Source: Gammaproteobacteria bacterium (GTDB taxonomy: Bacteria; Pseudomonadota; Gammaproteobacteria; DSM-19610). From it: DNA of 34,990 bases. Each line of letters starts with the position of its first letter. Positions within the stretch are counted from its first letter, which is position 1. Shown in pieces: positions 13,920-18,276 of the stretch. The stretch lies in contig JAUXGZ010000015.1 in the NCBI GenBank assembly GCA_030621785.1, positions 1 to 34,990 on the forward strand, given 5' to 3'. The notes below the pieces were generated by a model. That model was not told the origin of the DNA, ran no database searches, and saw only the letters and a list, made by a program, of their open reading frames with translations. A program made the translations under genes and the position numbers.

Positions 13920-16790
13920 ATGACGAATTCTGGCCGCGAGGTCAAAGCGGAAATCGTCATGGACGCACTGGAACTGCGCGCAGTCAAACGGCGTTTCATG
14001 GCGCTGAACAAAGATCGGTTGCGCCTGGTGCAGGAGTCACTGGATCGGCGTCAGCGGGACTTCATCCACCTGCTACCGCTGCTGTTCCATATCAACCACC
14101 CGATGCTGCCCGGCTACATTTCCAACCAGACACCCTGTGGAATATCCGGTTACATGCCGAGCCGGCGAACGATCCAGGCGGCCCGCAGTCTGGCGAAAAG
14201 TTTTTCACACCAACGCCGCGCCCAGCAGCGCTATTCCATTCATGCGCTGTACCTGATGGGCAGTACCGGCACCATCGCTTACACGCGGGCCAGTGATTTC
14301 GATATCTGGGTGTGCCACCGACCGGGACTTTCTGCCAGCGAACAGCAAACCCTGCAGGACCGGACGGACAGTATCGAGGTCTGGGCCGGTTCACTGGGGC
14401 TGGAGGTGCACTTCTTCCTGATGGATGATGCCGCCTTCAGAACCCGCGATCATCAGCAGCTCTCAAACGAGAATGCCGGCAGTTCCCAGCACCGTCTGCT
14501 ACTGGATGAGTTCTACCGCACCAGCCTGCTGGTAGCCGGCCGGTTTCCGGTCTGGTGGCTGGTGCCACCCGAACATGAAACCGACTATGACGAATACGTC
14601 CACCGGCTGATCGCTAACCGCTTTATCAAGGCCAACGATACCGTCAACTTTGGCGGCCTCGGCCAGCTGCCGAGGGAAGAATTTCTCGGTGCCACCCTGT
14701 GGCAACTCTACAAGGCGGTGGATTCACCCTACAAATCCATGCTCAAGATCCTGCTGATGGAAGCCTACGCCAGTGACGACGCCAGCGTGGAGCTGCTGGC
14801 CATCCAGTTCAAAAAAGCACTGTACCAGGCCGACGTACGCCGGACGCAACTCGATCCCTACATCATGATGTGCAACACCGTGGAAAACTACCTGTTCTCG
14901 CAGCGACAGCTCCACCGTCTCGATCTGGCACGGCGCTGTTTCTATTTCAAGGTCAACGAGGCCATGAGTAAGCCGGACCGACGCACCCGCCAGAGCTGGC
15001 GACGCGAGGCTATGCGCGAACTGGTGTCGGACTGGGGCTGGAGCCAGTCACGTCTGGAACTGCTTGATCAACGCCGGCAATGGAAAATCCAGCGCGTACT
15101 GGAAGAACGCAACATGCTGGTACGTGAACTCACCCGCAGCTATCAGGCACTTTCCAGGTCAGGACGCGATGCCGGCAACCATCAGGCCATCAACGCCGGC
15201 GACCTGAATCTACTGGGGCGAAAGCTGTATGTTGCCTTTGAGCGCAAGGCCGGCAAGGTCGAAATGATCAACCCCGGCATCTCCGCCGACCTGTCCGAAG
15301 AACGTCTCTCCCTGCACCACATCACCGGACGACAGCAGCGGGGCTGGGCTGTCTACCAGGGTAATGTGCCCCCTGGTGAAACCTCCGGGCACACGGCACT
15401 GAAGCGTACCACCAGCCTGCTGGAACTGCTGTGCTGGTGTCACTTTAACCGACTGGTCAACCGCAACCCGTCGATTATCAGTATATTCCCGCCCGAAGGC
15501 GATCTGTCCCAGTGGGAAGTTCGCTGTGTACTCGACTGCCTGCAACAGCTGTTTCCCGATGGCAAGCCACCCGCTACGGATTTACAGGCACTGGCAGACG
15601 AGACCTGTATACGCCGCGCCGGCCTGTTCATCAACCTGGCACACGATCCCATGGCCAAGCTGTCGCGTAACGGCATGCACCTGGTCAGCGAGCGGATCGA
15701 CCCACTCAGCTACGGCGGACAATGGGAGAACCTTGCGGTTGGCTTCGAGATGGTCGCTGCGACATCCTGGGGTGAGGTACTTACCTTCCGCTATCACGGC
15801 CCGACGGCACTGCTTTCCTGGCTGTGCGACTGTTACGCCTGGGTGCCGGTCAATTCCGGCAGGACACCCCCACCGGTTCCCTGCTTCAGCTTTTCTTCCT
15901 CGCGTGGCGCCATCATTGCCCGTCGACTGGAAGAACTGTATGACGAAATCACGGACTATTTTTATCACAACTACTGGCGTCGCCACGCGCGTTATGCACT
16001 CCGTATCGGCCATAACTACTACGTACTGCAATGCGAAAACGACATCCCCCGCTATCACGAACTGGATTCCCAGGCTGCCCTGCTGCGCTACCTTGGACAG
16101 CCGCAGGCAGGCTTCAGCCCCATACGCGTCGATGGGCAGGCATTCAGCGACTCGCCACTACCACTGCTGCTGGAGAAGAATGAGGAAGGGGTGGTGCAGC
16201 TGTTTTTCCGGGTAACCGGCCACCGTGCCAGGTTATACATCCTCGATGAGCGTGGCTCGCTGTTCTATCACACAACGTTGTTTCACGATCACCGTACACT
16301 GCTGGCGCACTACCAGGCTTTCCTCGGCAGCGTGCACTACCGCATGCGCAACATGGTGGCAAGTCACAGTCTGTCAGACAACGATGACACGCAATACCTG
16401 CAAATCGTACGTAACCGCCGGGACGAATACCTGCTCGAGCCCATCGACGGCAGTCTGTGGCCCGAACCGGATTCCGACATGGGCGTACAGCTCATCGGCA
16501 ACCCGGATGATACAAACGGCGATGCCTTCAGCATTTTCTGCCGCGAGCAGGAGTTTTCTTCTCTGGAATATGGCGGGGATGTTTTCGCACAGGTTGCCCG
16601 GCACATTATCGGGCAACGACACAGCGGCGGCAGTTACCCGATCCACATTACCGACATCGATCTGTGTCCCGCCATGCTGGGTACGGACAGTGCGAGCGGC
16701 GTACAAACGGTACACTTCCTGCAGCAGAAAAAACGTATTGAATACCTGCTGAACCATGCGCTGGAAAACCGGGCGCAGGCAGACGCCTAA
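13920..16790 (+). CDS. cyaA: Class I adenylate cyclase
   Basis: A 956-residue enzyme making cyclic AMP from ATP, of the enterobacterial/Pseudomonas class I type. The N-terminal catalytic domain starts with LLPLLFHINHPMLPGYIS, then YLMGSTGTIAYTRASDFDIW (about residues 111-130), with the nucleotidyltransferase-like G-S and D-x-D residues. A long C-terminal regulatory region follows. The length is close to that of characterised members (about 850-950). I chose ATG 13920, which has GGAG ten bases upstream and gives an N-terminus resembling Pseudomonas CyaA; in-frame alternatives are 13848 and 13959. Its TAA interlocks with the TAG of the convergent DUF302 gene. The leader carries a possible CRP site, suggesting feedback control. 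Confidence 0.96.
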   Translation: MTNSGREVKAEIVMDALELRAVKRRFMALNKDRLRLVQESLDRRQRDFIHLLPLLFHINHPMLPGYISNQTPCGISGYMPSRRTIQAARSLAKSFSHQRRAQQRYSIHALYLMGSTGTIAYTRASDFDIWVCHRPGLSASEQQTLQDRTDSIEVWAGSLGLEVHFFLMDDAAFRTRDHQQLSNENAGSSQHRLLLDEFYRTSLLVAGRFPVWWLVPPEHETDYDEYVHRLIANRFIKANDTVNFGGLGQLPREEFLGATLWQLYKAVDSPYKSMLKILLMEAYASDDASVELLAIQFKKALYQADVRRTQLDPYIMMCNTVENYLFSQRQLHRLDLARRCFYFKVNEAMSKPDRRTRQSWRREAMRELVSDWGWSQSRLELLDQRRQWKIQRVLEERNMLVRELTRSYQALSRSGRDAGNHQAINAGDLNLLGRKLYVAFERKAGKVEMINPGISADLSEERLSLHHITGRQQRGWAVYQGNVPPGETSGHTALKRTTSLLELLCWCHFNRLVNRNPSIISIFPPEGDLSQWEVRCVLDCLQQLFPDGKPPATDLQALADETCIRRAGLFINLAHDPMAKLSRNGMHLVSERIDPLSYGGQWENLAVGFEMVAATSWGEVLTFRYHGPTALLSWLCDCYAWVPVNSGRTPPPVPCFSFSSSRGAIIARRLEELYDEITDYFYHNYWRRHARYALRIGHNYYVLQCENDIPRYHELDSQAALLRYLGQPQAGFSPIRVDGQAFSDSPLPLLLEKNEEGVVQLFFRVTGHRARLYILDERGSLFYHTTLFHDHRTLLAHYQAFLGSVHYRMRNMVASHSLSDNDDTQYLQIVRNRRDEYLLEPIDGSLWPEPDSDMGVQLIGNPDDTNGDAFSIFCREQEFSSLEYGGDVFAQVARHIIGQRHSGGSYPIHITDIDLCPAMLGTDSASGVQTVHFLQQKKRIEYLLNHALENRAQADA

Positions 16791-17230
16791 TCCGCCGTGC
16801 GAACCTCGTCGAGGATCTGGCGAATATCGTTCTCCCACTTGTCGAACCTCGACTGCAGACTGCCACTGGCGTAGTTCGGGCGCAAATGCGCAAAACTCGA
16901 AGCCAGCAGGATGGTTTCATCACCCTCGGCAAAAATCGCAATTTTCATCGGGAAGTAAGGAACCAGCTCCGGGTACTGTTCACTGAGCAGGTTCAGCTCA
17001 TCGATGTCACCAAAAAAAACCACCCGGTACCTGTCTGTGGCGTAACCGGATTCGGTCAGCCCGATATCGACGCGCTGCACGCGTGAAACCTTGTAGGCAT
17101 GGTTGCCGATCGCCTCCTGCAACACCGTCATGGCCTCCGGGAAGGACAGCTGGGTACGCACCATGAAAAGATCCTGGGCAACGAGCAGCGGAGAGCACAA
17201 CAGCAGGAGCAGGAACAGGTATTTTTTCAC
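16787..17230 (-). CDS. Exported DUF302 protein
   Basis: A 147-residue protein with a signal peptide (MKKYLFLLLLLCSPLLVAQ), so it probably acts in the periplasm. The mature part is a single DUF302-like domain (SFPEAMTVLQEAIGNHAYKV, VVFFGDIDELNLLSEQYPEL, VPYFPMKIAIF). DUF302 has no established function. The two cysteines seen in the partner protein's DUF302 domain (in YFCN and LPCR) are replaced here by Gly and Met (FFGD, YFPM). The start overlaps the upstream cytochrome-DUF302 stop by ATGA, so the two are translated together and may form a complex; that is inference. The end interlocks with the end of cyaA. Confidence 0.85.
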   Translation of the reverse strand: MKKYLFLLLLLCSPLLVAQDLFMVRTQLSFPEAMTVLQEAIGNHAYKVSRVQRVDIGLTESGYATDRYRVVFFGDIDELNLLSEQYPELVPYFPMKIAIFAEGDETILLASSFAHLRPNYASGSLQSRFDKWENDIRQILDEVRTAD

Positions 17231-18276
17231 AGCGTCGCATCCTCCATGATTTCTGCGTAAATGTCGTGCATCTCCTGACAGGCCTTGTCCAGCTCGGCAT
17301 TGTTGAACAACCGACTAAGGTTCTTCGGATTGATAGTCATTACCTGCACACCGTGCCCGGTATCCACCAGCGTGATGCGGCAGGGCAGGAACAGGCCAAC
17401 CCTGGGGTCGATGGCCAGGGCCTCGTCGAGGAAGGAAAAATTGCAGAAGTACAGCATGACCCTGGCAGGATCCTCTTCCCCCTCGGAAGTGAGTCCTTCC
17501 TGAAAATACTGTACCCGGATAATACGGAAGTTGCGCCCGACGACAGCCTGTTTGAGGTTTTCCAGCGTCTCTTCCAGGCTGTAGGAAGACTCGAACTGGA
17601 TAATTGGATCCAGCGCACCGCGTGCCGGCCGCTCGTCCTCGACTTTCAGTTCGCGGATCCAGGCCACCAGGTCATTGGCATCCTGGTCGTTCAGGCCCAG
17701 CGAGCCAACCGCGGGCATCGGCGTCCCTTCGCGACCCGCCAGCAAGGTCGCTTTCAGCATGGCATCGCTTACCGAATGCTGGAAACCGGGGTTATTCAGC
17801 GCCGGCGCCATAACCGGGCTTTCACGCGGGCGGGAAAAAGTCACACCGGTACCGGCGCCACCCTGGCCGTGAACGCCGTGACAGGCCGCACAATGAGTGG
17901 CAAACAGCGTACTTCCGTGCTCTGCATTACCCTGCAGTGCCTGATCGCTGTAGACCGGCGCCGGCTTTTCGGACCAGCTGCGGATATGGCCGATAATCGC
18001 ATCCACCGCCTGCTCGTCCAGTGCCGGAAAAGCCGGCATTACTCGCCCGGGCCGTCCCTCGTGCAGGGTTTTACGCAGGTAATCGTCGCTCGCAACCGCC
18101 AGGAAATCCGGCAGGTTCAGCGGCACACCAACACCACCGTCACCATGAGCACCGTGGCACACGGCACAATTCTGCTGGTACAGGGTGTCGCCATCGGACG
18201 CCGGTGCCGCCAACGCGAACCCGCCAGACGCAAGAATAACGCCGGGAATCAACAATTTTAAGCATTGCATAAACAT
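17227..18276 (-). CDS. Dihaem cytochrome c fused to a DUF302 domain
   Basis: A 349-residue exported protein. A signal peptide (about 1-24, ending FALAA) is followed by two class I cytochrome c domains: CAVCH at 37-41 with Met80 in GRVMPAFP, and CAACH at 129-133 with Met187 in GTPMPAVG as probable axial ligands. From about residue 225 comes a DUF302 domain (QYFQEGLTSEGEEDPARVM, LYFCNFSFLDEALAIDPRVG, LFLPCRITLVDTG). It should be a periplasmic electron carrier, but the function of the DUF302 module is unknown. ATG 18276 gives the full signal peptide; ATG 18270 is also possible. An FNR/ANR-type box upstream suggests induction at low oxygen. It overlaps the second DUF302 gene by ATGA. Confidence 0.9.
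   Translation of the reverse strand: MFMQCLKLLIPGVILASGGFALAAPASDGDTLYQQNCAVCHGAHGDGGVGVPLNLPDFLAVASDDYLRKTLHEGRPGRVMPAFPALDEQAVDAIIGHIRSWSEKPAPVYSDQALQGNAEHGSTLFATHCAACHGVHGQGGAGTGVTFSRPRESPVMAPALNNPGFQHSVSDAMLKATLLAGREGTPMPAVGSLGLNDQDANDLVAWIRELKVEDERPARGALDPIIQFESSYSLEETLENLKQAVVGRNFRIIRVQYFQEGLTSEGEEDPARVMLYFCNFSFLDEALAIDPRVGLFLPCRITLVDTGHGVQVMTINPKNLSRLFNNAELDKACQEMHDIYAEIMEDATL

Follow-up and report, generated by a model that had tools for sequence, protein, structure and literature searches.

An obligate pair of DUF302 proteins, one fused to a dihaem cytochrome c and one lacking the canonical cysteines, tracks sulfur oxidation in Gammaproteobacteria

The window analyzed here, a stretch of 34,990 nucleotides from a gammaproteobacterial assembly (GCA_030621785.1, contig JAUXGZ010000015.1), encodes two DUF302 domains side by side (Table 1). 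One of them, in gene A, is fused to two c-type cytochrome domains, and the other, in gene B, stands by itself and lacks the cysteines of its neighbor. Structures have been solved for this domain family, but to our knowledge its function has not been established. The locus therefore raises the question of what two such domains do together, and what role the cysteines and haems might play.

Table 1. Coordinates of the features discussed, in positions of the window
Feature	Position	Strand	Description
Gene A	17227..18276	-	349 aa; signal peptide, two c-type cytochrome domains, C-terminal DUF302
Haem motif span	17878..18168	-	CAVCH (A residues 37-41) to CAACH (residues 129-133)
Codon of A Cys278 (YFCN)	17443..17445	-	Canonical DUF302 cysteine 1
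Codon of A Cys299 (LPCR)	17380..17382	-	Canonical DUF302 cysteine 2
Codon of A Cys333 (DKACQ, C-terminal helix)	17278..17280	-	Third cysteine, replaced by a B cysteine in one clade
A stop/B start overlap GTGA	17227..17230	-	GGAGG ribosome-binding-like site upstream, within the last codons of A
Gene B	16787..17230	-	147 aa, GTG start; signal peptide and DUF302 without canonical cysteines
Codon of B Val54 (RVQRVD)	17069..17071	-	Cys in eight related pairs in which the third Cys of A is missing

Gene A matches cytochrome profiles twice (Cytochrome_CBB3/Cytochrom_C) and then PF03625, the DUF302 profile. The DUF302 domain scores 38.5 bits against a curated Pfam cutoff of 23, which places it within the family, and comparison of the gene A model with DUF302 structures by Foldseek gives TM-scores of 0.79-0.87 (target-normalised). 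Upstream of this domain, two CXXCH motifs (C37/C40/H41 and C129/C132/H133) are each accompanied by a downstream methionine, as befits c-type haems. The conserved residues M80 and M187 could serve as sixth ligands, which would give both haems His/Met coordination. The haem domains of A are similar to CcoP and to the dihaem subunit of bc1, and the haem region has TsdA and SoxCD among its weak structural matches. Like CcoP and other dihaem c-type cytochromes, A carries electron-transfer haem domains in tandem, but it scores far lower, at 56.3 bits against a cutoff of 179.95 for the CcoP NCBIfam equivalog, and thus falls outside that class; it also adds a DUF302 domain. The N-termini of both A and B are signal-peptide-like. 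Given export and two c-type haems, the proposal in the original prediction that the fusion hints at a periplasmic redox role is the natural reading of gene A.

A Pfam search with gene B itself gave no match, and its membership in the family at the sequence level comes by way of its relatives, 11 of 17 of which match PF03625 when aligned (best 2.6e-07). The AlphaFold model of gene B (pLDDT 84.9) has strong structural matches only to the DUF302 structures 1q9u, 1j3m, and 7tj1, with VIA-align Z scores of 14.0-15.5 compared to 8.1 for the next row, and Foldseek E-values against DUF302 structures fall as low as 6.9e-08. KA1 domains and PYR/PYL receptors were rejected as relatives of B, their VIA-align Z of about 8 or below being taken as a sign of a common fold arrangement. 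The DUF302 cores of A and B align without gaps at 23% identity. Gene B is a diverged branch of DUF302 that has the same fold and lacks the classic site. The solved PF03625 members (1q9u, 1j3m, and 7tj1) share this fold with both proteins, and A shares the places of their CN and LPC cysteines. However, the solved members are single, free-standing, haem-less domains, whereas A and B are obligate, diverged partners, one of them fused to two haems. PDB entry 7tj1, which has the DUF302 fold and is matched by B, is titled “putative fluoride ion transporter CrcB” and looks mislabelled.

The two genes were originally described as joined by an ATGA overlap. The four-base overlap is real, but here it reads GTGA, with B starting at GTG. 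Together with the GGAGG ahead of the B start, this arrangement would be compatible with translational coupling. A four-base overlap of start and stop is found in 73 of 82 adjacent pairs (ATGA in 44, GTGA in 27, and TTGA in 2). In a panel of 369 genomes from the gammaproteobacterial class, B is present in 62, and all 62 also carry A. One more panel genome (G085) has A without B, and its A-like match is weak. The distance matrices of A and B for the 82 pairs show a mirror correlation of r = 0.86, matched by 0 of 1000 permutations, a value that includes shared species history. A phylum-wide search added one carrier (G585), the genomes listed all belonging to the same class, and a search for the pair on plasmids found none. 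Named relatives include Thiogranum and Sedimenticola MAGs.

The haem domain is absent from A in nine pairs. Most of these form branches of their own for A and for B, which indicates that the pair was either duplicated or retained as a pair without the cytochrome. Haem-less pairs thus show that the cytochrome is optional and the pairing is not. The A/B pair is an obligate unit. Among the haem-less pairs (L086, L088-L093, L095, and L099), several B proteins are lipoprotein-like and several A proteins look membrane-anchored. In L086, a quick tree indicates that the cytochrome part was apparently lost secondarily.

The cysteine contrast between the two domains is equally consistent. Alignment confirms that YFCN of A matches FFGD of B, and that LPCR matches YFPM [FLPC(R) versus YFPM(K)], as had been proposed. 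The CN and LPC of 1q9u and 1j3m align with the YFCN and LPCR of A, so that these are the canonical DUF302 cysteines, and the corresponding residues in B are Gly and Met. In related genomes, none of 84 distinct B domains has Cys at either canonical position, Gly and Leu being commonest there, and nearly all A domains keep the canonical cysteines. The original prediction was to be given up if the cysteines proved non-equivalent or poorly conserved; when this was tried, they were found to be equivalent, conserved in A, and absent from every B. The same genome encodes a free-standing DUF302 protein (L001) that has the canonical cysteine pair and no signal peptide. Another DUF302 protein of this genome, which bears a signal peptide (L003:707-1180), has FCN, but LCP rather than LPC.

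Unlike the solved DUF302 members, A has a third conserved cysteine, and its distribution suggests that B takes part in the same site. In 71 of the 82 pairs, A carries the full set of three cysteines and the B site has no cysteine. Eight pairs have two on A and one on B, two have none of the three, and one has lost Cys2. In the eight swapped pairs, the third position of A varies (G, W, A, F, S) and the B cysteine is fixed. It lies just past the second strand, where RVQRVD is changed to QRCD, QKCD, or QLCD. The swapped pairs cluster on both the A and B sides of a quick tree, and therefore appear to represent one event kept in eight lineages. As judged from these sequences, the most economical reading is that the pair requires the third cysteine and that both subunits border a common site. 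Since B gains a cysteine in the clade in which A lost its third, B probably helps build the site, and a single composite site of three cysteines is probably shared between the two subunits. Consequently, the earlier division into a redox-active and a non-redox subunit holds as a description of the cysteine contrast, but it is too simple in that B supplies a cysteine in the swapped clade. Two B proteins (L047 and L063) have an unrelated additional cysteine.

Conserved cysteines in periplasmic proteins frequently make disulfides. It is therefore conceivable that the DUF302 pair serves mainly as a dimerization scaffold held by structural disulfides, with A acting as an ordinary dihaem electron carrier, as the likeness of its haem domains to CcoP and the bc1 dihaem subunit might suggest. 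We consider this improbable. The number of cysteines is odd, all three are retained in each of the nine haem-less pairs, and structural disulfides are unlikely in L001, which has the canonical pair and no signal peptide.

A clue to function is that the pair tracks sulfur oxidation across genomes. Among 38 carriers and 38 non-carriers, soxB is present in 35 versus 8 (p = 2e-10), dsrA in 32 versus 8 (p = 5e-8), and at least one of the two in 36 versus 10; the non-carriers were picked by list order and the statistics ignore kinship, so these co-occurrences are confounded by phylogeny. The link with ccoN is weaker (33 versus 16), and when the comparison is limited to ccoN-positive genomes the sulfur link stays (31/33 versus 9/16, p = 0.003). 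FccB is a poor discriminator (17 versus 8). Against the link, eight genomes are dsrA-positive and lack the pair. Both soxB and dsrA are present in the genome from which the window was taken.

Among all 63 carriers, both soxB and dsrA are absent only from G229, G329, G333, and G353, the last of which is 75% complete and has a genus-mate (G145) that carries soxB. Of the carriers with at least 94% completeness, those without either gene (G229, G329, and G333) are exactly those whose A protein is short of canonical cysteines. In G229 and G329 all three A cysteines are lost and in G333 only Cys2, and the haem motifs of A are intact in each. This association (p = 1e-4 by genome, about 1e-3 by genus) corresponds to about two independent events. 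Sulfide oxidation may nevertheless persist in G333, which encodes an FccB homologue. The A protein of G333 (L128) has LPF in place of the second cysteine motif and an extra Cys nearby (NYLCS); the gene may be at an early stage of decay, its site may have changed, or the sequence may contain an error.

Our preferred explanation, which we hold tentatively, is that A and B constitute a periplasmic heterodimer with a composite three-cysteine sulfur site, from which electrons leave through the haems of A. The two DUF302 domains would form an obligate dimer in which B stands in for one subunit of the homodimer thought to be usual for DUF302 proteins. The three cysteines, all on A in the window and divided two to one between A and B in the swapped clade, would converge in one site, and this site may bind or transiently carry a sulfur species such as a thiol, persulfide, or sulfane sulfur. 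Released electrons would then flow to the two putative His/Met c-type haems and onward to the respiratory chain, where a cbb3 oxidase is the probable acceptor, in organisms with Sox and/or reverse-Dsr sulfur oxidation. Thus, the pair would be a periplasmic heterodimer working as a sulfur-compound dehydrogenase or an electron-transfer module.

This proposed job is similar to that of SoxCD, TsdA, and other periplasmic sulfur dehydrogenases, in that sulfur oxidation would be connected to c-type haems. Unlike the SoxCD/TsdA class, A and B have no Mo cofactor domain, and the DUF302 three-cysteine site would take its place. A bolder version of the proposal is that the pair represents a new kind of enzyme for periplasmic sulfur oxidation, in which a DUF302 heterodimer has a three-cysteine site spanning its subunits and a third cysteine that moved in one lineage. 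This is unlikely on present evidence, but if true, the DUF302 pair may cover, in Dsr-type oxidizers, part of the role that SoxCD has elsewhere.

The main rival is a metal site. Three conserved cysteines are as typical of metal binding as of sulfur chemistry, and the pair might bind copper, zinc, or iron and assist the assembly or regulation of cbb3 oxidase or another metalloenzyme, with the haems reporting on or reducing the metal. Several gene contexts would suit such a role: ccoN is present in 33 of 38 carriers, one A/B pair adjoins hemN-like and fnr genes, a published table of genes responding to microoxia places a Bradyrhizobium DUF302 gene next to ccoG (PMC6515984), and in Acidihalobacter a DUF302 gene flanks a copper-resistance cluster (PMC7760498). 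However, ccoN is unmatched in five carriers at the threshold used, its link with the pair is weaker than that of soxB, and the sulfur link persists among ccoN-positive genomes. A metal site also does not predict the loss of cysteines in genomes without sulfur-oxidation genes, of which G229 and G333 keep ccoN. We therefore judge the metal site to be a serious but somewhat unlikely explanation.

Published gene contexts offer independent support for the sulfur link, without establishing it. According to one report (PMC5037610), a DUF302 gene is located in the sox clusters of Acidithiobacillia and others, between soxA and soxB. Its product is presumed there to be periplasmic, is proposed from domain analysis to be a homodimer, and is tentatively linked to trithionate oxidation. 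Other studies indicate that the sox clusters of Sulfitobacter contain DUF302 genes (PMC11034169), that the sox cluster of T. thioparus lacks the gene (PMC5248467), and that one DUF302 gene is similar to a gene of an sqr operon (PMC5061849). The sox-cluster protein and the A/B pair are both linked to sulfur, but the available text of PMC5037610 describes one gene within the cluster, whereas the pair lies outside it. That text mentions neither a cytochrome fusion nor a second DUF302 partner, and neither a cytochrome fusion nor a cysteine/no-cysteine pair was found in the DUF302 literature surveyed, some of it judged by title.

The sulfur-oxidation link, the third cysteine of A with its one-clade subunit swap, and the haem-less pairs all go beyond the original prediction. 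An obligate pairing of a domain with cysteines and one without, a haem fusion, a swap confined to one clade, and a strong association with sulfur metabolism together allow specific and inexpensive tests of the role of DUF302. Should the preferred reading hold, it would fill in a periplasmic electron-transfer step that has been missing for widespread sulfur-oxidizing Gammaproteobacteria.

Genetic context near the pair provides little further guidance. The pair seldom adjoins sulfur genes, which counts against the preferred reading, and in most relatives the neighbors are housekeeping genes, from which little about function can be learned. In the window and most relatives these are genes for a class I adenylate cyclase (cyaA), a carboxylesterase, and a lysA-type decarboxylase, along with dapF. 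In another group of relatives the neighbors are parE and parC. At two loci of the swapped-cysteine clade (L035 and L101), the pair is flanked by a parE-like and a parC-like gene.

Two congeneric genomes (G020 and G287) carry A and B inside an operon, flanked by napG-like and napH-like genes. The operon also encodes a NapA/Fdh-like molybdenum enzyme with a Tat signal, along with NapG/NapH-like proteins and a dihaem cytochrome. Such a placement raises the possibility that the pair is a dedicated subunit of this uncharacterized enzyme and its NapG/NapH-type partners, as does the fact that close orthologues of the enzyme (77-84% identity) are confined to carriers, occurring in 8 of 39 carriers and 0 of 16 non-carriers tested. 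However, 31 of the 39 carriers lack the enzyme at that identity, and A and B are located elsewhere in the other six of the eight genomes that have it. A dedicated subunit therefore seems very improbable. The operon is conserved in its own right (L067, L094, and L137-L142). Beyond the molybdenum enzyme of about 900 aa and the dihaem cytochrome, it encodes several NapG-like proteins, one NapH-like protein, a NapH-like membrane protein of 500 aa, and a 200-aa “HHVLGRPAYSL” protein with no Pfam match, and in some cases a NapC/NirT cytochrome.
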